Positions 15,114 through 45,959 of a stretch of 64,000 nucleotides of DNA are shown in pieces (positions within the stretch are counted from its first letter, which is position 1; each line of letters starts with the position of its first letter). The notes under the pieces were generated by a model, which had not been told where the DNA came from, searched no databases, and worked only from the letters and a program-made list of their open reading frames with translations. Position numbers and translations under genes: made by a program. The stretch comes from Bosea sp. RAC05 (GTDB lineage: Bacteria > Pseudomonadota > Alphaproteobacteria > Rhizobiales > Beijerinckiaceae): contig NZ_CP016464.1 in NCBI RefSeq assembly GCF_001713455.1, positions 176,001-240,000 of the forward strand, given 5' to 3'.

Positions 15114-15160
15114 AATGGCGCGCCCGAAAGGATTCGAACCTCTGACCCTCAGATTCGTAG
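15114..15160 (-). repeat. Left attachment repeat: displaced 3' half of tRNA-Arg
   Basis: Identical over 47 bases to 45881-45927, covering the encoded CCA, acceptor 3' strand, T arm and part of the anticodon arm on the minus strand. After one mismatch, seven more bases match (to 15168), then identity ends. It cannot form a tRNA. Automated annotation often calls a false protein across this tract. Confidence 0.9.
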
Positions 15161-15350: not shown

Positions 15351-18644
<3,294 letters not shown>

Positions 18645-18658
18645 TGTCCCGTTCCCCC

Positions 18659-19954
18659 TCAGATATCCAGGCGGATCTGACGATCCCCGCTCGTGTCGTG
18701 GATCGCGGCTGCCTGCCGCGTCAGCTCAGTCCAATCAGCGATCAGGGCGTTGTAGGCCGTGGCCTCCTTCGCATCCTTCCGCTTGTTGGCACTGATGTCG
18801 TAGAGGCAGTAGGCAAGGTCCTTCACCGCCTCGGCCTTCGCGTCGATCTTCTTCAGAAGCACGGCAGTCTCATGCGAGATGCCGTCCTTTTCGTATTTGC
18901 GAACGAGATGCTGAAGGCACTCCCAGACGGTCAGATGGCCGTCGCCCTCCGGCTCCCAATCATCATCCAGTTCATCGCGCGCCAGGATGCGGACCTTCCC
19001 AGCCGCACTGTCGATGATCCTGGCATGCTTCACGTTCTCCACCGAAATTCCACGGGCGCGCGCAAGGTTGTCAGCCGCGCCGTACTCGCCCCTTGCCATG
19101 CCGTGCTGTTCGAACCACGTGATGGCAAAGCGGGTGTCGGCGTCGAACTCGCCTTGGATGCCGCCGAGGTATTCGTCGAGCTCGCGGTTGATCAGCTGCA
19201 GCGCGGCCTTCACACTCATCGGACTGTCGTCGGATTCCAGCACCGCCTTGTAGCGCGAGAAGACGCCCATGCCTGGGCCGATGGCCGATTGCGGCATATC
19301 GGCCGGAGCAATGTTGGCTGCCTGAAGGTCAGCGATGGCGGGAGGCAACTCCCGTTTCAGGGCTCGGATGAATTCGGCACGCGAAACGACCTCTGCAGTC
19401 GTTTCTCTCTTACGGCAGACTAGGACAACCGAATTGGCAAGCGCATTACTTTCCCGGCCACGCAACCGGTTTGCCAGTTCCGTGCGTACCGGCCAAGTGC
19501 TTACGACAGCATATCCCGCGTCTAGTACAGCCTGCAGAAAAGTTGCCCAGCCGGTCGAACTGACCCCCTCTTGCGCGACTTCGCTCTGCTTGAACGCGTA
19601 GTATATGGTTGCGGGGAAGAGGTTAGATGCCTGTCGCGCCATGTTGGCAATGGCCTCGCGCATCCCGTCAAGGAAGAATGTCTCTGCCGCTTCCCGGCCG
19701 CCCTGCCGATACGGGGCAGCTATTAACTCATCAGCCTTAGGCGTAGCGATAAATGAAAACAAATCAGGATAAATTTCCTTGAGGCTTCTTTTAAGCCAAA
19801 TAAACAAGAAATCAGATAAATCAGCATATCCTATATTGTCGTAATACGGAGGGTCAGTCGAGATGATTTTGTCTTCGGCAATCTTCTGAGATTGGGCATT
19901 TTCTTGTGAAACGGATCCGGTTGTAAATGACGGCAATACTGAGCTTTCGGCCAT
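18659..19954 (-). pseudogene. DUF1156-type adenine-specific DNA methylase, 5' half missing
   Basis: The remaining frame encodes 431 residues, about half the usual length of the family. It keeps the amino-methylase motif IV (STDPPYYDNIGYADLSDF, Asp about 34) and the rest of the C-terminal half (TIYYAFKQSE, GYAVVSTWPVRTE). The N-terminal DUF1156 region is absent. An in-frame TGA stands directly before the first ATG, and the recombinase gene begins only 49 bases beyond. The 5' end of the surviving part is also much more AT-rich (about 19720-19930) than its surroundings. The gene was most likely cut off when the recombinase unit arrived. A short product could still be made but would lack the normal N-terminal half. 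Confidence 0.75.
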
Positions 19955-20002
19955 TCACCGGCCGATCGGGAAAGGCGGAGCAACTCAAGACAGGAAAACC
20001 CC

Positions 20003-21379
20003 ATGAATGAGATCAGAAACGTCGCAGCCGAGACGTCTGCGACTGTGCGGGACTGGAAGAAACCGCGCGCCATTCCGTCGACCTTCTCGACCGCATGCCA
20101 GGCCATCTATACGGCCATGCCAAAGAACCTGAGGACCTATATCAGCCCTCTGTTCCAGTATGCGAGCGACCGCGGGATCGATCCCGCTCAGATCGATGAC
20201 CAGGCGATCGAGCAGTTCCGCAACCAGCTCGCTGTTTGGGGGGTGCAGGACCCGGCACCGTTCATCTCCTGCCTGGTCCGGGACTGGAACGTCATCCGCA
20301 CCATGGAAGGGTGCAGCCACCTGCTTGAATTGACGCCGCCGGTTGGGAAGCGCGCAGCGTCTCGCGCATCGCGTGCCGAGGCGTTTTCCGCTCGCTTCGT
20401 CGAAGAACTCGATCAGGAGTTTGGAACCGCCTCACCGCGTGAAAGCGATGATGCCCATAACCGATACAATGCTCGCAAGCGCATCGAGCGCGTGGCCGAA
20501 ACGATGATCAAGCACGGCCATATGGTCGGCAGCATTGCAGACCTCGCCGACAAAGCGGCGTTGAAGTCGGCCATCGATGAGCTCTACCCCGACATCTTGC
20601 GCACCAAGGCGCGCGACCTCGTCTTACTGGGCATCGAGAGGGCACTCGCAAAGAGCGGACAGGCGGCCAGCCTCGCGAAGGTGGTTCGCGCGGTCCGGTA
20701 TCGCCATCAGCAGGCCGGCATTGACCTCCCTGCCAACACCAAACGGCAGGTTTCTCATTTCACCATGGAAACGGTCTTCGCGATCTTCGACGCTGCGGTG
20801 TTGGAGATGGAGCAGGCGCTGGCGGGCAAGCCGAACTACGACGCACTGGCCCGTGCCCGGGCCTGCATCGCCGTCGGACTCGTCCTGTGGAACCTGTGCC
20901 CTCGGGGCACGATCGAAGGGGCAACGTTCTCGGGCGATCATACCGGCATCCGACACCGGCTGATGGGTCCCCAGAATAGCTCGTCCGTCGACCTCGAGCG
21001 CGATCTTCCCAAGGAAATGGGCGCTAGCATCGATCGATACGTCCTCGCTGTGACCCAGTATCTTGGTCGCACGCCGAGCGCCCTTCTAGATTCAGGCAGG
21101 GATGAGCCGGTGAGCGGCAGCGCCTTGTCCACGGGCGTCAGGCGCTTCTTGACCAGCATCGGCCATGACGACCTGACGCTGCAGCGTCTGCGAGATGGCG
21201 CGAATGCCGCCTATCTCAAAGCCAACCCGAAGATGGCTGAGTGGCTCTCTGACGCGAACGGCTTCCGCTACACCGCAAACTTCAAAGTGCGCTTCCGGGC
21301 CCTGATGGGGATCAACGATGCGCAGCGGCTCGAGGACACCTTCGAGGCAAGCGACGACCGCGAAGGTGCCCGGCTATGA
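20003..21379 (+). CDS. Degenerate tyrosine-recombinase family protein (partner of the next gene)
   Basis: 458 residues. It has a helical N-terminal part (about 1-250) and a C-terminal region aligned by eye with the recombinase catalytic core. Arg 301 (LWNLCPRGTIEGATF) matches the first catalytic Arg. At the position of the His-x-x-Arg box there is Gln 394-x-x-Arg 397 (LQRLRDGA). Where the downstream protein has the second His and the Tyr nucleophile, this one has Arg/Tyr and Phe-rich sequence (FRYTANFKVRF). It is therefore probably a non-catalytic partner. It overlaps the next gene by four bases. AGGA lies seven bases before the ATG. Confidence 0.6.
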   Translation: MNEIRNVAAETSATVRDWKKPRAIPSTFSTACQAIYTAMPKNLRTYISPLFQYASDRGIDPAQIDDQAIEQFRNQLAVWGVQDPAPFISCLVRDWNVIRTMEGCSHLLELTPPVGKRAASRASRAEAFSARFVEELDQEFGTASPRESDDAHNRYNARKRIERVAETMIKHGHMVGSIADLADKAALKSAIDELYPDILRTKARDLVLLGIERALAKSGQAASLAKVVRAVRYRHQQAGIDLPANTKRQVSHFTMETVFAIFDAAVLEMEQALAGKPNYDALARARACIAVGLVLWNLCPRGTIEGATFSGDHTGIRHRLMGPQNSSSVDLERDLPKEMGASIDRYVLAVTQYLGRTPSALLDSGRDEPVSGSALSTGVRRFLTSIGHDDLTLQRLRDGANAAYLKANPKMAEWLSDANGFRYTANFKVRFRALMGINDAQRLEDTFEASDDREGARL

Positions 21380-22446
21380 CATCGTCGCCTCAGAAGAAGC
21401 GCCAGCCTCGGACCCTCGCCAAGGACCGTTGGACTCCCGAACAGCGAAGCATCGTTGCCATCGCAAGCGAAGGATCATTCGACCCCCGCGAGAAGCGCAA
21501 GGAGTTGCGTGAATCGACGCAGCGCAATCTGTCCCAGGTGCTCGGGTTTTTCCTCGGCTACCTCGATCGCCTGCATCCTCACATGGTCAGTCTGCCCCTC
21601 GCGCAGAGCCTCACTCAAGAAGCGCTTGAGGGGTTCCGCAACGATCTCGCGACGACGAACACGCCCCGGTCCGTCCTGACGCTGATGGATCGCCTCAAGA
21701 TGCTGTGTGCGCGAGCGGAGCTGCCCGAAGTGGCAAAGGTCATCGCCACGATCGCAGGATCATCCCCAGGGCGAGCCTACGTACCACCGCCGCGAGCAAG
21801 CGCACGCCAGGTCTACCGCGCGGCCAAAGCCTATTTCCTGCTGCGGGTCCGCGAGATCCGTCGGCTCGGCTTCGGTCGGCGCGAAAAGGCGCGTGAACGA
21901 CGCGCGGCGAGCGAAGCGCTGACGGCGCTCACGATCATGTTTCTGACGCAGCTTCCGTTGCGCATCAAAAACGTGCTGGCGCTGGACCTTGGCGTTCAAA
22001 TCATCATCCACGATGACACGATCGTCCTGCTCCTCCCTGGCGAACAAATGAAAAGCAGGCGGGATTTCGATGCGATCCTTGGGAAAGAGCTGAGTGATTG
22101 TGTCCGTCTCTATTTGCGAATCGTCCGGCCCATCCTCGCCAAGGCCGCGTCCCCAAATGCCCTGCTGCTGGGTGCCAAGGGTGGAAGGCTCGCCTATCCC
22201 ACGGCCTACAGCCGGATCCGAAGGATGACGCAACAACTCGTGGGAGAGCGGATTAACCCACATGCCTTCCGCAGGCTGATGGCGGTCTGGGCTCGCAACG
22301 ACGAACGTTTAGGTCTGGACGTAGCTTGGCGCCAGAACCAGCATGTCGGTCCCAAGGAGACAGACAGGACCTACGCACCGCCCCGTGTCGAAGTCGGCAA
22401 AAGCGTCTATCAGGCAGCCTGGAAGCGCGCGCCGGACCCGACCTGA
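21376..22446 (+). CDS. Tyrosine recombinase (integrase family), catalytic residues present
   Basis: 356 residues. Residues 1-140 form an N-terminal core-binding-like part; the catalytic domain follows. Visible residues: Arg 196 (LPLRIKNVLAL), Lys 226 (GEQMKSRRDF), His 296 and Arg 299 (PHAFRR), His 323 (NQHVG) and Tyr 333 (DRTYAPP). This complete R-K-HxxR-H-Y set predicts DNA strand cleavage and rejoining. Overlap with the preceding degenerate family member implies they act as a pair, as in multi-recombinase transposons. It differs clearly from the island integrase at 44790, so it belongs to a separate mobile unit. Confidence 0.75.
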   Translation: MTSSPQKKRQPRTLAKDRWTPEQRSIVAIASEGSFDPREKRKELRESTQRNLSQVLGFFLGYLDRLHPHMVSLPLAQSLTQEALEGFRNDLATTNTPRSVLTLMDRLKMLCARAELPEVAKVIATIAGSSPGRAYVPPPRASARQVYRAAKAYFLLRVREIRRLGFGRREKARERRAASEALTALTIMFLTQLPLRIKNVLALDLGVQIIIHDDTIVLLLPGEQMKSRRDFDAILGKELSDCVRLYLRIVRPILAKAASPNALLLGAKGGRLAYPTAYSRIRRMTQQLVGERINPHAFRRLMAVWARNDERLGLDVAWRQNQHVGPKETDRTYAPPRVEVGKSVYQAAWKRAPDPT

Positions 22447-22846
22447 CAGGAATGAAGCAAGTTCGCGCTCTGGAGCTCTTCGGAGCCAGCGCGCTTTCGC
22501 ACAGGTTGGAGGGGCACTGTCGCCCGACGTCATCGTGAGAACTGCAGCCATTGCTGCGCCGAGCTGACGAAAGTGCTGATCGTACCGCAAGGCCGGCCAT
22601 GAAGAAAACGCCCGAGCGGGCTACCGCAACCCTCCCTGCTACGTGACACAACCGGCCTTCCAAGCGATTGCGGCAGCAAGTCGTGGCGATTTGGGATCCG
22701 CGCGCCATCGGCCTCGCAGGTGAGGCGCGCATCTCGCCTCAGATCCGACGCTCATGGATTCGCATCAGGCGTAGGCACCAACCTTCAGCGGAAGTTCCGT
22801 TCAACCGACAGAGTTCTTGCCGATAATGAGTAAGGACCCCCACAAC
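22447..22846. other. Non-coding stretch after the recombinase pair
   Basis: About 400 bases with no convincing gene, RNA or repeat. It must hold the promoter of the next gene unless the recombinases are read through. Recombination sites for the pair could lie here, but no inverted or direct repeat was recognised. Confidence 0.35.
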
Positions 22847-23554
22847 ATGTCGAAGCTTTCATATGTCGAATTCAAGGAGGCCATCGCGCAGGCCAGCGCG
22901 CTGGAGCTTACCGGTGTCATCCATCTCGCAACGAACCAACTGCAGTCTCTGCATGCCACGCCAATGGAGGCGCCCTTCAGCTTGCGGGCCGATGCCCGGA
23001 CGATGCCCATCGAAGCGCGAGGCCTGGACGTCACCATCTACCTGGCGGGCTGCACAGGCCTGAGGCAGCGTTCCGTGATTGTCGGCCGCCCGATCTACAA
23101 GATCGGTACAACGACACGGCGCGACGTGGACGGGCGGGTGAATGACCTCTCAAAGGTGCGCTACGCCGGATATGACCCGCATTCCGGCGGGCATTGTGAG
23201 GGTTTCGACGATTACACGCGCATTGCGTTCAAAGAACCCGGTCAGGCGCTCCCGCAGGGTCTGCGACTCCATGATGGATGTCTGGTGGCCGAGCTCCCGC
23301 CCAACTTGTCGCGCAGCCAGTTCGAGGCGCGTTTTCGCCAGGCCCTTATGGCACACTCCGTGTCGGAGTGGGCGCAGTCTGGCGACGGTGAAGCCTGTCT
23401 GTCGACGCGCGGCTTGCACGTTGAGCAGCTTCCAACACTGACGCGGTTCGCCTACGGCGCGGTCAGGGCGAAGGAACTCTATGTGCTTTCTGCGGCCCCG
23501 ATGACAATGATCGTGGCGAAAGCCGCTGCATCGGTCTGCGGCAGAGGTGACTGA
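22847..23554 (+). CDS. Protein with T5orf172/GIY-YIG-like segment, function unknown
   Basis: 235 residues from the chosen ATG. The central segment RPIYKIGTTTRRDVDGRVND, followed by a YAGYD segment, resembles the start of T5orf172/MUG113 domains, a GIY-YIG nuclease relative in which Tyr-x-x-Gly-x-T is followed by a basic helix. No other catalytic residue could be assigned, so nuclease activity is only suggested. The start is uncertain: ATG at 22826 and TTG at 22817 are in frame, and AAGGA lies rather far upstream of 22847. A hairpin terminator follows at 23691. Confidence 0.5.
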   Translation: MSKLSYVEFKEAIAQASALELTGVIHLATNQLQSLHATPMEAPFSLRADARTMPIEARGLDVTIYLAGCTGLRQRSVIVGRPIYKIGTTTRRDVDGRVNDLSKVRYAGYDPHSGGHCEGFDDYTRIAFKEPGQALPQGLRLHDGCLVAELPPNLSRSQFEARFRQALMAHSVSEWAQSGDGEACLSTRGLHVEQLPTLTRFAYGAVRAKELYVLSAAPMTMIVAKAAASVCGRGD

Positions 23555-23690
23555 GGCCATCAACGGCCTCAGGCGCCGACGCAGCGTTCCGGCGGCCAAC
23601 TTCGACACGCGACGGGAGACAACGGTTCTACCATTTGCGGCGTCTTATGGAGCGCTGGCGATCCTGATCTCGTAATTGGGTCAACCAAGA

Positions 23691-23719
23691 GGGCGTCGGC
23701 CACCGGGGCGGCGCCCTTT
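23691..23719 (+). terminator. Probable intrinsic terminator after the T5orf172-like gene
   Basis: GC-rich inverted repeat GGGCG...CGCCC with a long loop, followed by TTTCTC. The stem is short, so strength is uncertain. Confidence 0.4.
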
Positions 23720-23787
23720 CTCATGACCAGGAGGTGAAACGGGACTGCAGCCGCAGCACCCCAGTGAAGCTCAGCCCGGATTCCCCG

Positions 23788-24924
23788 ATGACCACGAAGT
23801 CCAGCCGCCCGCGCAAGAAGCGCGCATCCTCATCGATCTCGTCGCCAAGCCCGGTCGGCCTGCACCTCTTCGACTATCATGATGTCGATCGTCGCCTGCA
23901 TGGCGACGGCATCATGGCCTCAACCAGTGACGACGAGGGCAACGCCCAAGCGAGGCAGCGCGCGCTCTGGCGCCGGCTTTACGAGGACGAGCGCGGCTCC
24001 TGGCGCAGCTTGCTCGTGCCCGATGCCGAGATGATCGCCCGCATCGCCGCGCTCGACCTGACCTGTCCGCAGTTCGCGCCCGTCACTGCTTGGATCTTGC
24101 GCACCGCTACGCTGGCCATGGCCGGAGGCCAGCCGCTTCGTCTCGACCCTTGTGTGCTGCTCGGCGCCCCCGGTGTCGGCAAAACCTACTACGCCCGTCG
24201 CCTCGCCCAGGCTTTTGACGTCATGACGCTGACGATCCCGATGAACTTAATGACGGACAGGGGCACCTGGTTCAGCGGGCTGGCGCCGGTCTGGCGGGCA
24301 AGCGCGCCCGGCAAGGTCGCTCAGCTCTTGCTCGACTCGAACTGCGCCAGCCCCGTCATCGTCATTGATGAAATCGAGAAGGCCAGCCCGCTCAATCCGG
24401 CGGAAACACCGATCAATGTGCTGCATTCCTTGCTCGAACGCGAAAATGCCCAGGCTTTTACCGACGATTTCATCGAAATCGCCCTCAGAGCAGATCACAT
24501 CATCTGGTTAGCGACAGCGAACGACCTATCGCCGCTACCGGCCTCGATCGTCGATAGGCTCATTGCCTTCGAGATCACGCTGGAATCCAGCCAGCTGCTG
24601 GCGATCCAGCGCTCGCTCTTCGACGAGGCCAACGTTGCCACGGGCGGACTGTTCGCTCGGCCGACAGACGCACTCTTCGAGCAGATCATGGCGCAGACGC
24701 CCCGCGCGATGAGCCGGCTCTGGCCCATCGCCTTCGGCTTCGCGTGCATGGAGGGGCGCCGGCACGTGACGCGCGCCGATATCGTCCAGGCTGAAGCAGT
24801 GCTGCGGCTCGATCAGGGCGGCAAGAGCCGGATCGGGTTCCTGAGCGGGTTGCCGGCCAAGGGGGTGAAGACGGATCCGAGCGAGGCCCTGGTCCTGCCC
24901 AAGAGCCCGGAGAGGAAGCGATGA
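23788..24924 (+). CDS. Lon-like AAA ATPase lacking a protease domain
   Basis: 378 residues from the ATG at 23788. The AAA module has Walker A GAPGVGKT (about 126-133), the Lon-type segment MTDRGTWFSGLAPVW, Walker B VIVIDEIEKA (about 190-199), sensor 1 WLATANDLSPLP (about 241-252) and an Arg-finger-like SIVDRL. It ends with a small helical lid and no Ser-Lys protease domain, so it is an ATP-driven remodelling factor rather than a protease. In-frame GTG codons at 23734 and 23764 are alternative starts; a strong AGGAGGTGAA at 23729 suits neither perfectly. The next gene overlaps by four bases, suggesting a working pair. Confidence 0.75.
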   Translation: MTTKSSRPRKKRASSSISSPSPVGLHLFDYHDVDRRLHGDGIMASTSDDEGNAQARQRALWRRLYEDERGSWRSLLVPDAEMIARIAALDLTCPQFAPVTAWILRTATLAMAGGQPLRLDPCVLLGAPGVGKTYYARRLAQAFDVMTLTIPMNLMTDRGTWFSGLAPVWRASAPGKVAQLLLDSNCASPVIVIDEIEKASPLNPAETPINVLHSLLERENAQAFTDDFIEIALRADHIIWLATANDLSPLPASIVDRLIAFEITLESSQLLAIQRSLFDEANVATGGLFARPTDALFEQIMAQTPRAMSRLWPIAFGFACMEGRRHVTRADIVQAEAVLRLDQGGKSRIGFLSGLPAKGVKTDPSEALVLPKSPERKR

Positions 24925-25898
24925 CGAAAGGGAGACAGCGAGGAAGGGGACCGAAGAACCCCCGAGAACCTCAGACGACCTCTTCACCAGAAAGTTACAT
25001 CCACATGACCAAGTCCAACCCGCGAGCGTCCGCTTCGAAGAGCCTCGCCTCCCTGCAGATCGACACGAACCCGCGCGCAGTCATCGACGAAATTTCGGCC
25101 TTACGCCTTCACCGGCCTAGTGCCGTCGACTACGCCGCCTTCGTCAACAATCCCGCTTGTGTCGCCGATATGGTCGAGCGTGCCCGACTGCATGCAGACC
25201 AGGTCGCACGCTTCGTCACGCTTGCGCAGGTGAGCCCGCCCAGCACGGTGACGCAAAATCTCCCCCAGCTCTACGCGCTCGTCCTTCTAAACATGACCGC
25301 CACGGTCGCTGTTGCGATCATGCCGGCCCACAACGGCGCCGATCGGCATGCGCGCTGCCAGCAGGGCGCGGCCTTTCTCCAGAGCTTGGAAAACCCCGAC
25401 GAGAACGAGCTGCGCCATCTTGCCGAGATCGCCTTCGAACTGCCCCATCGTGACGCGCATACCATTGCCCGGGACGCCATTGCCTTCGCCAGCCGTGGCC
25501 ATGGCGAAGAACCTAAGCCCAGCCGCGCTACGATCCACTGGATTGAGGAGAACGCCACACTCCGCAACTGGCTCAAGCGCAGGACAGAGGTCAGCGTGTT
25601 GCTGGCTGAAGCCCGACAGCATGCCATCATGCTGGATCGCTTCGAGGCCTCCTTCGACCAAGACGATCTGCCTCCGATAGCTCGTGACGCGGTCGCCGAG
25701 GCCTGCGAGGGCGCTCTCCACCAGCATGTGCTCGCGCTCGCTGAACTCGCGCTGTCGCCGGTAACTGTCACTACCGACCAAATCCTCGAAGCCGCCCATG
25801 CCAGCGTCACCACCCGCACCAAGCTCCAGGCGGGGCTGCTCATCGCCATCGCGGTCGGACAGCACTACCGCGCCATGCTCGCCGCCAATCCATGCTGA
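24921..25898 (+). CDS. Unknown helical protein coupled to the Lon-like AAA ATPase
   Basis: 325 residues, not recognised. It is mostly alpha-helical by eye, with a Ser/Thr/Pro-rich first 45 residues and Ala/Leu-rich helices later (LAELALSPVTVTTDQILEAA). There is no obvious catalytic motif, signal peptide or membrane helix; one mildly hydrophobic stretch (LYALVLLNMTATVAVAIM) occurs near residue 120. Its ATG overlaps the AAA gene stop (ATGA) and follows AGAGGAAG, so co-translation is likely. A later ATG at 25005 is possible. A substrate adaptor or regulator of the ATPase is a reasonable guess from context only. Confidence 0.6.
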   Translation: MTKGRQRGRGPKNPREPQTTSSPESYIHMTKSNPRASASKSLASLQIDTNPRAVIDEISALRLHRPSAVDYAAFVNNPACVADMVERARLHADQVARFVTLAQVSPPSTVTQNLPQLYALVLLNMTATVAVAIMPAHNGADRHARCQQGAAFLQSLENPDENELRHLAEIAFELPHRDAHTIARDAIAFASRGHGEEPKPSRATIHWIEENATLRNWLKRRTEVSVLLAEARQHAIMLDRFEASFDQDDLPPIARDAVAEACEGALHQHVLALAELALSPVTVTTDQILEAAHASVTTRTKLQAGLLIAIAVGQHYRAMLAANPC

Positions 25899-25974
25899 GA
25901 GGCGCGTATGGCGGGAGCAAGCTCCCCCTGGGACGCGGTTGGCGTTCGCCAGCCGCTGTAATGGACAGGGAAGG

Positions 25975-26000
25975 ACAGGCGCCCTCGCGGCGCCTGTTTC
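25975..26000 (+). terminator. Intrinsic terminator after the AAA gene pair
   Basis: Perfect 9-bp stem ACAGGCGCC / GGCGCCTGT with a 5-base loop, ending in TTTC. It separates the AAA pair from the next gene, which must therefore have its own promoter or rely on readthrough. Confidence 0.65.
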
Positions 26001-26060
26001 GATTCAGGGACTGAGGAGGACGCGCAGCCGATGGGGCTGTACCCACACGAAAGAGCAACC

Positions 26061-27053
26061 ATGACCGATAAGAAGAACCGGGACCTGACAGGTCCCCATG
26101 AAGGCGGGGCCGTCGACCGGCCGGAACTCCGGACCGATCTCGACCCGATCGCAATCGCAACCGAGCTGGTCAGCGACGACCCCTCCGTCGCCGAGCTCGT
26201 CGCCTTCCGCGCGGCGATCCCCGATCTGAAGGAGGCGGCTCGGCAGGCCAAGCGCCTCCTCGACGAGGCAATGCGGGTCAGGTTGACGCCAGGCTTCGAC
26301 GCCGCGCCCCAGATCGCGGTTGGACTGATGCTCATCGGCCAATCCCTCACGGCCCTGACGGCAATCTGGCCGACCGACACCCTCGACTGCGCCGAGGCAA
26401 AGCTGGCCTTGGCCGAGGCGATCGGCCCGTGGGACCGCGATCAGGGGGGCGACTATGTCCCGGCGCTCGCGCCGGCGACGGCGACCCGCATTCGCGTCAA
26501 GCGCGCCGCTCTGAACGTCGGCGAGCTGATGGTGCCGCCTGGACCCGCCGTGCCCTCGGCGCACGATCGAGGCCTCGGCGACTGGCCCCTTAAGCACTAC
26601 GACCTCACCATCCTCGTCGAGCCCCAGGGCGGCCCGCCGATGTTCGTCGACCCCGACGCGCAGCGCTGGATCGAGTTGCTAGCGCAGGCCCCCGATCTTG
26701 GCCGGTTGGCCAAGCGCGTCGAGCGGATGCTCAAGACGGCGGACAAGCTGTTCGCGCTGGCGCGGACCCCGGCCGAAGACGCCACGGAGCTGCGCCGGGC
26801 CGCGGAAGGTGCACAGATCGCGGCCTATATGACGGCCGCACGTGTCGCGGTCTGGCCGGTCGCGAAGGGGTCCGATGGCGTCAAAGCCAAGAAGAGGGTT
26901 GCCAAGGCCATCGATGACCGCGCTTGCCGCGCCGATCCGCTCAACATGCAGGCCGCCATCCGCATGGCCTTTGAGGACGCGTCCTGGCTCTCCAGGCTCG
27001 CCGGAGGCGACCGCATGGCGACGGGCGTGCCGATCTGGATCGAGATCGTCTGA
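26061..27053 (+). CDS. Unknown protein, last large gene of the recombinase unit
   Basis: 330 residues, not recognised. Charged and Ala/Leu-rich segments (DLKEAARQAKRLLDEAMRVR, RLAKRVERMLKTADKLFALA) suggest a soluble helical protein. One hydrophobic stretch (AAPQIAVGLMLIGQSLTALT, about 83-102) may be buried rather than membrane-spanning. There is no motif of known enzymes. The start is uncertain: an in-frame ATG at 26031 has GAGGAGGA ten bases away, whereas 26061 has AAAGAG at five. The stop codon abuts a palindrome cluster (27052-27250), which could be a binding region for this or a neighbouring protein. Confidence 0.55.
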   Translation: MTDKKNRDLTGPHEGGAVDRPELRTDLDPIAIATELVSDDPSVAELVAFRAAIPDLKEAARQAKRLLDEAMRVRLTPGFDAAPQIAVGLMLIGQSLTALTAIWPTDTLDCAEAKLALAEAIGPWDRDQGGDYVPALAPATATRIRVKRAALNVGELMVPPGPAVPSAHDRGLGDWPLKHYDLTILVEPQGGPPMFVDPDAQRWIELLAQAPDLGRLAKRVERMLKTADKLFALARTPAEDATELRRAAEGAQIAAYMTAARVAVWPVAKGSDGVKAKKRVAKAIDDRACRADPLNMQAAIRMAFEDASWLSRLAGGDRMATGVPIWIEIV

Positions 27054-27250
27054 ACGACGTTCGTTGTCATGACGGCGACCTCGAACGTCGTTCGATGATC
27101 GAAAATGCGACGGGTGCCCTCGGCCGCTTTAAATCGATGAACGCAGTGCCATGAGGCATCGCGAAGGCGTCGTCGGAATGACGTAGATGAGCTCGAACGT
27201 CGTTCGGCGGCGCCGGGTGCCACGATCCGATGGACGTCGAACGATGTTCA
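27052..27250. repeat. Four palindromes of the form CGAACGtCGTTCG
   Basis: GAACGACGTTC at 27052-27062, TCGAACGTCGTTCGA at 27081-27095 (perfect 7-bp arms), CGAACGTCGTTCG at 27194-27206 and an imperfect CGAACGATGTTCA at 27238-27250. Four related sites in 200 bp with no gene between them suggest a multi-site protein binding region such as an operator array, iterons or a recombination/partition site. The spacing differs from the alphaproteobacterial LexA box (direct GAAC repeats). Confidence 0.6.
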
Positions 27251-27257
27251 TTCTGGA

Positions 27258-27285
27258 CGGGCGGTGCTGCGGCGCCGCCCGTTTT
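27258..27285 (+). terminator. Intrinsic terminator downstream of the recombinase unit
   Basis: Stem CGGGCGG / CCGCCCG followed by TTTT, on the plus strand, 205 bases after the last large gene and just after the palindrome cluster. Confidence 0.65.
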
Positions 27286-27306
27286 CGCCGATGGTGGTGT
27301 TGAAGT

Positions 27307-27426
27307 GTGATCCGTCCCACGGCGTCGCGCCCATTCAACCTCGTCGATGGTTTCGTGGCCTTCCTGCGCGAACAACTTGCCGAGCTCGCGGCGGACATGA
27401 AGCCGGGAGAAGACGCTCAGCTCTAG
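27307..27426 (+). CDS. Possible 39-residue small protein or 3' gene remnant
   Basis: GTG start to TAG, encoding a short peptide with the plausible helix FVAFLREQLAELAADMKPG. The frame opens just after a terminator and its last bases overlap the convergent MFS gene stop. It has no clear ribosome-binding site. It may be the surviving 3' end of a gene lost at the element boundary. Support is weak. Confidence 0.2.
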   Translation: MIRPTASRPFNLVDGFVAFLREQLAELAADMKPGEDAQL

Positions 27427-28649
27427 AACCGGCGGGACAAATACAGCGTGAAACCGGAAGCCACCACCGTCATCACGCCGGAGGCGATGAAGACGACCGG
27501 CAATGGCAGGACGAGCAGGAGCACCGCGAAGAGACCGGCGGGAACGATCTGCGCCACGTCGCGATATGTGCTGAAGATGGGCGTCATCCGCATGCGCTGA
27601 TGCGGGCGCACCGCACGCAGGAACAGGACATTGCCCATGCCGTCGATGGCACTCATCGCGAGGGCAGCGACGAGTAGCATCGCTGCTGCGCCGTAGGCGC
27701 TAATCGTCGTGAGTGGAGCGACGGCGATCGTGCACAGGCCGCAAAGAGCATAGCCGGACATCAGGACGTTTCGCGTGCCTAATCGACGGGCAAGCCGCCC
27801 CCAGAGCGGTGCGAGCAGCAGCAATGTCGAGCCGAGCGACACGAGCACGCCGCCTGCGGACGGGCCAAGCCCGTAGCTGATGGCGAAAATCGGCGCATAA
27901 ACGAGATACATGCACCACCACGCCGCTCGGGCGACCGCGAGCAGCCATGCCAGGCGCAGACGCGGCTGAGCCCAGAACCGCCCCAGATCGGCCCAGCTCG
28001 GCGCGATCGATGCGGCATGGGCCGAGGGCGTCGGGCCTTGTGGCTTCAGCCGCATAAGCAGGAGCGGCGTCAACAAGGCACAGGCAGCGCTTGTCGCCAA
28101 TGGCAGCCAGGGGCCGGTCGACTGCGCCAGAGAGACGCCGAGCCATGGCCCGATCGCATAGCTCGCACCGGCGAGAAAGATCCGCCTCGGCTCGAATGCG
28201 GAGAGGGTGCGCCGGGGAACATATTGCAGGACATAGAGGCTCATCACGTTCTCAAAGGTCAGCACCATCAGAACATGCAGAACAAGGCCGATGGCCAGTC
28301 CGAAGCCGGAGGCGGTACTCAGCGCCACGGCCGAGCCGACCCCGCTCGCCGCCGCGCCGATCAGGAGCATCGAGCGGCCGAGCCGCGACAAGAGCCAAGG
28401 CAAAGCAACACTCGCGGCGATGCCGAACAGGCTGGCGACGAAATAGAGTTCGCTGACCCGCTGTGCCGTCCCCAGCATCGCATAGGCGACGACCGGGATC
28501 AGCGTGATCACCATCGTGCGCGCCAGGACCGTCAGCGCATAGATGCCGACCAGCCCCCATTCCGAGGGCATGACCGGTTCGGGTCGTGAAGGCGAGCCCT
28601 CCAAGCTGCCGGCCTCCGCGATTAGGGCCGAGGGCCGCGGCCATGGCAC
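27423..28649 (-). CDS. Major facilitator superfamily transporter
   Basis: 408 residues if started at 28649, with about twelve hydrophobic helices and a basic loop after helix 2 (LSRLGRSMLLIG, the MFS motif A position). It is the last gene of the catabolic operon and overlaps the preceding cyclodeaminase-like gene by 28 bases. A shorter start at 28571 (MPSEWGLVG), just before helix 1, is equally likely; neither has a strong ribosome-binding site. It probably moves the pathway substrate or product across the inner membrane; nothing in the sequence shows which. Confidence 0.8.
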   Translation of the reverse strand: MPWPRPSALIAEAGSLEGSPSRPEPVMPSEWGLVGIYALTVLARTMVITLIPVVAYAMLGTAQRVSELYFVASLFGIAASVALPWLLSRLGRSMLLIGAAASGVGSAVALSTASGFGLAIGLVLHVLMVLTFENVMSLYVLQYVPRRTLSAFEPRRIFLAGASYAIGPWLGVSLAQSTGPWLPLATSAACALLTPLLLMRLKPQGPTPSAHAASIAPSWADLGRFWAQPRLRLAWLLAVARAAWWCMYLVYAPIFAISYGLGPSAGGVLVSLGSTLLLLAPLWGRLARRLGTRNVLMSGYALCGLCTIAVAPLTTISAYGAAAMLLVAALAMSAIDGMGNVLFLRAVRPHQRMRMTPIFSTYRDVAQIVPAGLFAVLLLVLPLPVVFIASGVMTVVASGFTLYLSRRF

Positions 28650-43997: not shown

Positions 43998-44608
43998 GTT
44001 CCCGTTTATCGTCGGCAGAAGCGCCGAAGTCGGGCGCGGCCACGATCGAAAACGATGGTCGCATCAGCTTAATCCACCGTCCATTGAATCGGCAGCAGGC
44101 CAGCTTGCCGTCAGCTTGGGTTCGTGCTATGTTCCTTCTATCGTGACCTATTCGGGCACCGACTTGAGGCCAGCTAGATTCCACAACACGCGGATACCTA
44201 GCCTCTTCTGATCGCCGAAGGAAAACGGAAGTTGCCCCGCGCACGATAGTCAGGCAACGCCATGCGGCATCCGGGGGCCGATGGTAATAAAACCGGGTGG
44301 TCTTGAGGGTGGCGGTAGTACGTCACCCTGGCGTCGTTGGATCGAAGTAGGGGTCGGCGTAAACAGATCCCGTTGGTAGTAGCGCGAGACCCGCGAAACC
44401 AACCGTGCCGGGCAAGTGCCGTTCCCGGACGAAGTCGAGTGAGGCACGGAACTAATCTTGCCGGTCCACGGCAGGATTGTCCGTGGACTCGACTCGATGA
44501 GCATCTTTTACGCCCTAAATCTTTGTTTTCTTATCGGAACTGATCTGCGGCGATCCTTTAGAAGGCGCTGCGGGTCGGCGTCGGCATGGTTGCAGGTTGA
44601 TCCTGGCC
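43998..44608. other. Non-coding region before the island recombination genes
   Basis: About 610 bases without a convincing gene. It contains an 8-bp inverted repeat GTCCACGG (44464-44471) / CCGTGGAC (44481-44488) and a 6-bp one AGGGTG (44306) / CACCCT (44324). The first lies about 120 bp before the small gene upstream of the integrase and could be an operator or hairpin; the tract after it is AT-rich and promoter-like. Confidence 0.4.
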
Positions 44609-44815
44609 ATGGCTAGGCGAACCCCATTCAGACAAGCCGATGTAAAACGCGCCGTAGCTGGTGTGCTCGCCGCAGGCGTTTCCGTCGGCCAGGTGAAGAT
44701 CACTGGCGACGGGGCGATCGTCATCTCCGCCTCAACCCCTGGTTCCCAGGAACGGCCTTCCACTCCCCTCGATCAGTGGCGTCAGCGTCATGCGCGTGAA
44801 CCTGAAGGGCGTTAA
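44609..44815 (+). CDS. Small basic protein upstream of the integrase
   Basis: 68 residues: MARRTPFRQADVKRAVAGVL, then GQVKITGDGAIVISAS. This kind of short protein commonly precedes tyrosine integrases in alphaproteobacterial islands and prophages. It may be an excisionase-like or directionality factor, but the fold is not shown by the sequence. Its 3' end overlaps the integrase gene by 26 bases, so the two are co-expressed. An in-frame TTG lies twelve bases upstream of the chosen ATG. Confidence 0.6.
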   Translation: MARRTPFRQADVKRAVAGVLAAGVSVGQVKITGDGAIVISASTPGSQERPSTPLDQWRQRHAREPEGR

Positions 44816-45872
44816 TCGCGTCCGAAAGCGTCTCGCCGATGGGACGATTCGGATTTACCACTATCACCGCGCAACCGGCAAAAAGCTGGAAGGCAACCCG
44901 GGCTCGGCGGAGTTCCTGGCGTCCTATTGGGCGGCAGAGAGGGCACCTGCCCAGCGTCACAAGGGAACCTTCAACGGCTTGATCCGCGCCTATACCGGCT
45001 CGGTCGAGTTTGCCAAGCTCGCGGGGTCGACACAGGCCGAGTACAAGCGAATGCTGACCAAAGCGGAGCCGCGTTTTGGCTCTATGCCGATCAGCGCGCT
45101 GAACGATCCTCGCGTGAAAGAGGATTTTCTTGAATGGCGGGACGAAGTGGTCCGATCTTCGGGAGAGCGCGAGGGGGACAACCGGCTCACGATCGTTTCC
45201 GGCATGTTGAGTTGGGCTGTGAGTCGAGGCAAGCTGACTGCCAATCACATCCTCGGTTTTAAACGGCTCTATGCGTCAGACCGCTCTGACATCATCTGGC
45301 TTGAAGCGCACATAAGGGCCTTCATGGCCGTAGCGGCGATCGAGCTGCAGTGGGCACTCATCCTCGCGCTCCATACAGGACAGCGCCAAGGTGATCTGCT
45401 CTCCGTCGCCTGGACCAACTACGACGGGCATGTACTCCGCATCTTTCAGTCGAAAACCCAAAAATGGGTGACCGTTCCGTGCACGAGGGCCCTCAAGGCC
45501 ATGTTGGACGGCATGCCTCGGGTGGCGACAGTCATCCTGACATCGACCACGGGAAAGGCGTGGAAGAAGCGCTACTTCGCGAACCAGTGGAAGGAAGCGA
45601 GCGACTTGGCAGACTTGATTGATCTGCACTTTCATGACCTGCGGGGAACGGCGGTCACGATGCTGGCAGAGGCGGGTTGCACCGTCCCGGAGATCGCGTC
45701 GATCACCGGTCACTCGCTCAAGACGGTCAACACCATCCTCGAGAAGTATCTGAGTCGGACTAGAGCTCTAGCAGAGGCTGCGATGGCGAAATTCGAGAAC
45801 GCCCCAGCAACAGATTTTGCAAACCGCTTGCAAACCGCGGTCAATCCCAAGCCGTCGAAACCGACTAAGTGA
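44790..45872 (+). CDS. int: Tyrosine-type site-specific integrase of the island
   Basis: 360 residues. An N-terminal arm-binding/core-binding part (about 1-165) is followed by a catalytic domain with Arg 199 (HTGQRQGDLL), Lys 222 (QSKTQKW), His 282 and Arg 285 (FHDLRGT), His 308 (ITGHS) and nucleophile Tyr 320 (EKYLSRT). The set is complete, so the enzyme should be active. It ends eleven bases from the 3' end of the tRNA-Arg gene used as attachment site. The two TGCAAACC sequences in its 3' coding end may be its own arm sites. Confidence 0.93.
   Translation: MRVNLKGVNRVRKRLADGTIRIYHYHRATGKKLEGNPGSAEFLASYWAAERAPAQRHKGTFNGLIRAYTGSVEFAKLAGSTQAEYKRMLTKAEPRFGSMPISALNDPRVKEDFLEWRDEVVRSSGEREGDNRLTIVSGMLSWAVSRGKLTANHILGFKRLYASDRSDIIWLEAHIRAFMAVAAIELQWALILALHTGQRQGDLLSVAWTNYDGHVLRIFQSKTQKWVTVPCTRALKAMLDGMPRVATVILTSTTGKAWKKRYFANQWKEASDLADLIDLHFHDLRGTAVTMLAEAGCTVPEIASITGHSLKTVNTILEKYLSRTRALAEAAMAKFENAPATDFANRLQTAVNPKPSKPTK
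45818..45838. promoter_or_regulatory. Tandem TGCAAACCGC sites at the right island end, possible integrase arm sites
   Basis: TTGCAAACCGC occurs twice, 11 bases apart (about one helical turn), inside the 3' end of the integrase gene and about 45-65 bases from the attachment core. The same heptamer occurs twice inside the left end (15196, 15249). Confidence 0.45.
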
Positions 45873-45882
45873 TTGAGAAGAA

Positions 45883-45959
45883 TGGCGCGCCCGAAAGGAT
45901 TCGAACCTCTGACCCTCAGATTCGTAGTCTGATGCTCTATCCAGCTGAGCTACGGGCGC
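45883..45959 (-). tRNA. tRNA-Arg(ACG)
   Basis: 77 nt including an encoded CCA. The acceptor stem GCGCCCG/CGGGCGC pairs fully with discriminator G. D arm has GCTCAGCTGGATAGAGC, the anticodon loop is CTACGAA (anticodon ACG, decoding CGU/CGC), and the T arm has GGTTCGAATCC. It is the attachment site of the island; its 3' half also exists as a displaced copy at 15114-15160. Confidence 0.97.

Follow-up and report, generated by a model that had tools for sequence, protein, structure and literature searches.

An undescribed gene set recurrent near the integration genes of Bosea islands, and its remodelled copy in a tRNA-Arg island of Bosea sp. RAC05

A 64,000-nucleotide stretch of Bosea sp. RAC05 (contig NZ_CP016464.1, positions 176,001 to 240,000; referred to below as the window, with coordinates counted from its first letter) carries six co-oriented and closely packed open reading frames (ORFs), A to F, at positions 19955-27426 of the plus strand (Table 1). 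A preliminary description of this DNA had placed six co-oriented genes here, in the place of the 5′ half of a methylase gene, and had read them as one recombinase-driven element, naming regular occurrence of the downstream genes without the recombinases as the observation that would speak against it. The gene arrangement was confirmed, and so was the loss from the methylase gene: hmaB of the window lacks approximately its first 530-548 residues, as judged with the PADLOC HmaB model and by tblastn with the intact hmaB found elsewhere in this genome, and its homology stops near 19955-19970, about 33-48 bases upstream of A. The reading as a single element did not hold, since relatives of D, E, F and C recur without A and B. 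Instead, we show that D, E and F, together with a C-family protein, are a remodelled copy of an island operon conserved in Bosea and its close kin. The full gene set of this operon (E/F, an AAA ATPase, C, exonuclease I and a protein termed c4; hereafter the module) is undescribed and recurs beside the integration genes of Bosea islands.

D is a Lon-type AAA ATPase without a protease, as the preliminary description had it. The match to the NCBIfam lon model (TIGR00763; 64.5 bits) covers the AAA residues 141-281 only, with no match to the protease, and the protein has 396 residues vs. 795 in the Lon model. D also matches the AAA structures of Lon in the PDB (E-value 3.8e-35), and the Walker A, Walker B and ATAN motifs are conserved in the AAA alignment. 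Considered as a Lon protease, D was rejected, as the AAA residues alone match; it shares this part with Lon and differs in lacking the protease and in sitting in an operon with E and F. For E and F no family match above the cut-off was obtained in Pfam, NCBIfam or PADLOC, and the PDB gave nothing convincing (best E-value 0.021, for E, to a designed protein); F had no tblastn match in plasmids or phages. The two proteins did not detect each other in a direct pairwise comparison, and it was only the larger set of relatives that joined them, as distant paralogues in a single family whose tree has two clades, E-type and F-type. The ratios of nonsynonymous to synonymous substitution rates (dN/dS) relative to locus L021, averaged over the whole branch, were 0.16 for D, 0.24 for E and 0.37 for F, indicative of purifying selection on all three genes.

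Table 1. Features of the window discussed in the text, with ORFs A to F and the palindromes first and the surrounding island after them
Feature	Position	Strand	Remarks
A, very rare recombinase-like protein	20003..21379	+	catalytic motifs not recognisable
B, probable tyrosine recombinase	21376..22446	+	4-base overlap with A
C′, T5orf172/GIY-YIG-like protein, a short C-family subtype	22847..23554	+	start possible at 22817
D, Lon-type AAA ATPase without protease	23734..24924	+	likelier start ATG 23788
E, orphan family, E-type clade	24921..25898	+	alignment, tree
F, orphan family, F-type clade	26031..27053	+	start may be 26061; alignments, tree
GAAC-N3-GTTC array	27052..27249		sites 27052, 27083, 27195, 27239; 27139 with one mismatch
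hmaB 3′ half (adenine methylase)	18659..19954	-	HmaB model positions 548-959 of 967
HmaC-type DUF499 ATPase, left neighbour	15351..18644	-	PADLOC HmaC 946.6 bits
Left 47-nt copy of the tRNA-Arg(acg) 3′-end repeat	15114..15160		exact direct repeat with 45881-45927; island outer end
Island integrase (tyrosine)	44790..45872	+	Phage_integrase 53.4 bits; clusters c19/intR
Right 47-nt repeat copy	45881..45927		overlaps tRNA-Arg(acg) 45883-45959

The composition of the module was determined with profiles in 43 annotated loci, comprising the window, L021 and other fetched stretches, and 42 of these were counted: L032, the contig of which ends before the AAA and C genes, was left out, L028 with L029 and L132 with L133 were each taken as one locus, and the C-family matches G020:C421 and G034:C229 were not fetched in full. 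The usual order is c4, exonuclease I (ExoI), one to five E/F genes, AAA and C. C was present in 42 of 42 loci, AAA in 41, at least one E/F gene in 41, ExoI in 37 and c4 in 37. Most often there are two E/F copies per locus, some of which lie downstream of the first AAA gene in 11/42 loci (the window and one tandem pair included), and no module gene runs antisense in any of the 42. As loci of the same genus are not independent, these counts describe recurrence and not probabilities. In the related loci, c2 encodes a full-length ExoI (PDB ExoI, E-value 5.5e-64 over 4-449; Exonuc_X-T_C, 49.8 bits), with the residues that we take to be the DEDDh set invariant in all 11 aligned sequences; for c4 the PDB search was not convincing (best E-value 0.95). 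No model in Pfam, NCBIfam or PADLOC describes the gene set, in agreement with the earlier view that it matches no recognised system, and no description of the operon was found in the literature by title or abstract, with subscription papers outside the search. At L132 (G1154:C21) two tandem modules stand ahead of one integrase at a tRNA-Met gene, the second of them being E/F-E/F-AAA-C without ExoI. A protein of 500-560 residues (cluster c14) recurs inside or beside the module (L024, 2856-4538; L026, 3925-5433), and the copy scanned, that of L024, had no Pfam or PADLOC match.

Comparison with L021 shows how the copy in the window departs from this order. The D-E-F region (23688-27058) aligns as one block to L021 5019-8353 with 75% DNA identity, and A and B were not found in L021. 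In L021 the block begins just past the stop codon of ExoI; in the window it ends between C′ and D. The window lacks c4 and ExoI and has A, B and C′ in that place. C usually follows AAA or F, whereas the window has the C′ subtype, moved upstream of D. It is also the sole locus with recombinase-like genes directly 5′ of the module.

C′ has six relatives with 52-84% identity. The description of this protein as T5orf172/GIY-YIG-like stands as a near-match: the T5orf172 model (PF10544), with its cut-off of 20 bits, gave 14 bits for C′ and 16 bits for its relative P0109. No T5orf172 match was listed at E-values up to 1 for four other C′ relatives, and none was found for the C proteins of L021, L033 and L037. 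By eye, the order of motifs in C′ is IYLAG ... YKIGTT ... R ... E ... EW; several of the ten aligned C proteins have HKVS or HKIS in place of YIG. The PDB search with C gave nothing convincing (best E-value 0.13), and the IMG/VR scan gave no match to C′. At L139 (12547-13467) a C-family gene lies in a 19.9-kb stretch in which AAA, E/F and ExoI were not found.

The claim that A and B are overlapping tyrosine recombinases was upheld for the overlap and, with reservation, for B, which matches the XerC model TIGR02224 under the model cut-off (E-value 3.9e-6, 26.5 bits) and has R/K/HxxR/H/Y by eye. It was not upheld for A. This protein had no match above the cut-off in Pfam, NCBIfam, PADLOC or PHROGs and none in the PDB under an E-value of 0.1, and neither HxxR nor the tyrosine could be recognised in the alignment. 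The only tie of A to recombinases is a distant protein of L089 (E-value 1e-9), itself at 25.7 bits vs. a Phage_integrase cut-off of 27.1. This relative is the larger partner of recombinase gene pairs found elsewhere in the order, which had no D, E or F alongside in the stretches examined. The overlapping tyrosine-recombinase-like pairs of L089-L093 encode proteins of about 550-640 and 350-380 residues (shorter in L092), and those of L089 and L090 directly adjoin serine-recombinase-like genes. A is very rare: the large protein set, in which the best 8000 candidates were scored in each homology search, held six A proteins, its own included; two of 61 related genomes matched, the second in part and weakly (E-value 3.3e-6); of 397 sampled genomes of the order only its own matched at E-values ≤ 1e-10; and the IMG/VR scan gave none.

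Recombinases stand at a constant side of the module. Of the 35 loci in which one was recognised, 14 have it at ≤200 bp, 23 at ≤1 kb and 34 at ≤5 kb, those 34 invariably 3′ of the module. Only the window falls outside this range, with 17.7 kb between the module and the island integrase (A and B not counted). The types are unrelated. The tyrosine recombinases comprise the c19 type, the intL cluster (L022, its one scanned member, has DUF6538) and other kinds (two out of three under the Pfam cut-off); besides these there are five recombinases of the large serine type. None was recognised in the remaining eight annotated loci, several of which are at contig ends; a 422-residue candidate integrase of L129, which matched no family, was excluded from the count. 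By coordinate comparison, 18 of the 23 best intL relatives (E-value < 1e-150, 67 genomes) adjoin the module and five do not, a count biased towards linkage, as the profile was built from module-linked integrases. Assorted tRNA genes occur in the locus flanks. Six islands of nearly closed genomes were searched for long attachment repeats, which were found in one (G009, 50 nt) and not in the other five; such a repeat is shown for the window and one G009 island only. Relaxases lie near the module in 6/42 loci, in the stretches examined and with profiles made from four relaxases only. Known or candidate defence genes were seen beside the module as well, namely Hma (window) and, among ten module neighbours scanned, ABC-3C/PDC-M68 (L023), E2-ThiF-JAB (L035) and a UvrD/GajB-like helicase (L030). 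The ABC-three-component/PDC-M68 pair is situated between module and integrase in L023 (14635-17584, scanned) and L025 (1392-4302, by clustering). The interval between module and recombinase holds RepA-like AAA_25 ATPases in L129 (3268-4500), L142 (5743-6882) and L149 (12214-13416), assigned with Pfam for L129 and L142 and by eye for L149, a hint of autonomous replication in some islands.

The palindromes noted after F in the preliminary description were confirmed, and the terminator was not: the plus-strand scan found none, yet a GC hairpin and a short run of T are visible near 27262-27290. The first palindrome overlaps the stop codon of F. Clusters of 4-8 such palindromes occur in eight loci (the window, L022, L024, L025, L027, L028, L129 and L140), mostly in gaps within the module, before AAA or before C, and other loci have 0-2 sites; the array of the window lies after F because C has moved. 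Control DNA of 436 kb in 22 stretches contained five GAAC-N3-GTTC sites. With the strict form GAACGNYGTTC, the genome of RAC05 has 21 distinct sites, 12 of which fall in two module arrays, against three forward and three reverse matches for the reversed pattern used as a control; no palindrome sites are present at the third locus of the module in RAC05. When six arrays were pooled, with L025 and L129 omitted as near copies of L024, the 27 spacings lay near helix-turn multiples (R 0.52 at 10.5 bp, Rayleigh ~6e-4). In 5000 random sets the observed maximum for periods of 10-11 bp was never reached; the best period, 11, is at the edge of this range. The spacings of the window (31, 112 and 44) are poorly phased. 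The palindromes are likely to be binding sites for a module protein and perhaps control the distal genes.

In the genomes searched, the module was found almost entirely in one genus. A search of 61 genomes gave relatives of E in 16, each of which belongs to the genus of RAC05, and relatives of C in the same 16; the C family was present in 25/67 genomes of the genus, with up to five matches in one genome. The E/F profile matched four of 199 genomes of the family, one of them from another genus, and, in a sample of 299 genomes of the phylum, its own genome only. Close protein relatives bear the names Bosea, Beijerinckiaceae and, once, Methylobacterium. A class-wide search with AAA matched 263/289 genomes at E-values ≤ 1e-25 and is uninformative on the module, since it is flooded by Lon-like matches. 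Distant AAA matches on plasmids amounted to 103 records, the best 20 listed having about 24-34% identity; the module profiles applied to eight such regions (H15 without annotation) found AAA and no E/F, C, ExoI or c4. A gene named GIY-YIG nuclease is present in four of the eight (H1, H2, H12 and H17), and the C profiles do not match there. L041 (a Variovorax plasmid) and L040 (a Thioclava plasmid) have stand-alone relatives of the D-type AAA with a GIY-YIG nuclease-named gene a few kb off, which may represent the AAA-C pairing in a looser form. In IMG/VR, AAA had two weak matches and the module profiles found AAA alone.

Several known systems resemble parts of the locus. BREX includes a Lon-like protein, BrxL; a PADLOC scan of A to F and two neighbours found none of PglZ, PglX and BrxC/L. 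Hma combines a helicase, a methylase and an ATPase, of which the eight proteins scanned gave HmaC and half of HmaB only; these remnants adjoin A to F, and no Hma model matches A to F themselves. The related loci share a full ExoI (SbcB) with the PADLOC system RTasSbcB, but the window copy is without it, and no reverse transcriptase was found among ten module neighbours scanned. From GIY-YIG nucleases several C proteins differ in lacking the tyrosine and the glycine of YIG. Recombinase-in-trio elements have three recombinases. The related GInts are described in PMC5385486 as having three recombinases and a fourth gene. Like these elements, A to F have overlapping tyrosine-recombinase-like genes at one end, followed by cargo and adjoining a gene whose 5′ end is cut; they differ in having two recombinase-like genes, not three, in the degeneracy of A and in the lack of a recognised GinD-like gene. 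Membership in this group was rejected, as only two such ORFs precede C′. No convincing pair of GInt-type direct-repeat ends of 10-17 nt was found in 19400-28200 among the 20 largest repeat families.

A to F lie inside an island of 30.8 kb, bounded by exact 47-nt repeats at 15114 and 45881. The integrase of this island belongs to the same cluster as the integrase that adjoins the module in L037. About 380 bp without a called gene, 70% conserved, were found in three tRNA-Arg islands (window, 44120-44499; L037, 15318-15708; L143, 6557-6167). In L037 and L143 this stretch lies between module and integrase; in the window it persists alone beside the integrase. It may encode an RNA or serve as an origin or regulatory region. 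Because the stretch is kept at its integrase, the window island is kin to islands with the module at its usual place.

Our preferred reading, to which we give a probability of roughly 45%, is that the module is a DNA-attacking exclusion or defence system that is now a standard part of Bosea islands; of the earlier proposals, it is thus the alternative of a cargo defence module that we retain. The module would be a multi-subunit system directed against foreign DNA, either phage or a competing mobile element. E and F would serve as variable recognition or adaptor subunits driven by a hexamer of the Lon-type AAA protein, the GIY-YIG-like domain of C may nick or bind DNA, and ExoI would then digest the 3′ ends so exposed. 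By binding at the palindrome array the module may regulate its own distal genes, and the copy in the window would be a variant without ExoI that uses C′. What suggests defence is the combination of nucleases, a motor, a varying number of E/F paralogues, a patchy distribution and nearby defence genes. It is suggested also by a nuclease with a T5orf172 domain (Gp88) that phage ICP1 uses as a weapon against its satellite, as reported in PMC8263062, with which C′, below the Pfam cut-off, shares the order of motifs by eye. The recurrence and ordering of the genes, the shared presence of E and C in 16 of 61 genomes, the complete ExoI of related loci and the dN/dS values of D, E and F also count in favour of this reading. 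ExoI does not decide the function, since it also acts as a host enzyme that tempers DRT9, a reverse-transcriptase defence, according to PMC12483538. Several points weigh against a defence role. No PADLOC model fits E, F, C or c4; the window copy has no ExoI; and the catalytic residues of C look doubtful. Three of the ten scanned module neighbours are relaxases. Outside the genus, E/F were found in one other genus only, and proven defence systems usually spread further. The fixed position relative to the recombinase (34/35, ≤5 kb) is more in keeping with an island backbone than with freely moving cargo.

This last point leads to a serious, though minority, contender, in which the module is a machine of the island backbone that serves excision control, circle processing, replication, partition or transfer and is kept when recombinases are swapped; a module protein would then bind the palindrome array as a centromere-like or origin-like site. 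The constant 3′ side of recombinases of unrelated types is what such a machine would show, and the 18 of 23 intL relatives that adjoin the module, the relaxases and the helix-turn phasing of the pooled arrays are consistent with it. Yet the relaxase profiles match six of 42 loci only, ExoI and c4 are absent from 5/42, the array occurs in just eight loci with poor phasing in the window, and the intL count is biased and includes five cases away from the module. A rather doubtful proposal, which we hold as tentative, is that the operon is a long-lived core of a family of Bosea islands, retained through several exchanges of the site-specific recombinase, tyrosine and serine types alike. The AAA motor, the stacked E/F paralogues, ExoI and the C nuclease would act on the palindrome array as a survival machine independent of the recombinase, which would also exclude competing islands. 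That A to F arrived as one unit driven by the A/B pair is improbable. The co-orientation and packing of the genes, the cut in hmaB just upstream of A and the position of A and B directly 5′ of the module, seen in the window alone, would agree with such an arrival, but A has no match at E-values ≤ 1e-10 in the 396 other sampled genomes of the order, relatives of D, E, F and C are found where A is not, the homology block stops between C′ and D, no convincing end repeats surround 19955-27430, and the C′ relatives P0103 and P0105-P0109 share no contig with the A relatives P0049-P0053 (longest listed contig only). It is likewise quite unlikely that the copy in the tRNA-Arg island is a dying one, made inactive when the A/B pair recombined with an older module. 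The missing ExoI and c4, the moved C′, the truncated hmaB, the distant integrase and the isolated 380-bp stretch, which follows the module in L037 and L143, could be taken as signs of decay; however, all six frames are open, the dN/dS values of D, E and F (as whole-branch averages) indicate constraint, and the C′ subtype has six relatives of its own. Whether read as the exclusion or defence system that we prefer or as an overlooked part of integrative elements, the operon is unnamed, contains the orphan E/F family, occurs up to five times in one genome and, in 34 of the 35 loci with a recognised recombinase, stands close to it whatever its type. The window shows that a six-gene run resembling one element can be a patchwork.

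In scans of the window, tRNA was the sole Rfam match at gathering scores, and promoter-like and terminator-like sites did not exceed chance. To the right of A to F lies a gene for an MFS transporter. A complete HmaB gene is present elsewhere in the same genome (G000:C2:854622-857474; L152), with about 47% protein identity to the copy in the window. The HmaC-type ATPase to the left carries an N-terminal Swt1-like HEPN domain (residues 12-121; HEPN_Swt1, 90.8 bits), possibly an RNase fused to a defence ATPase.

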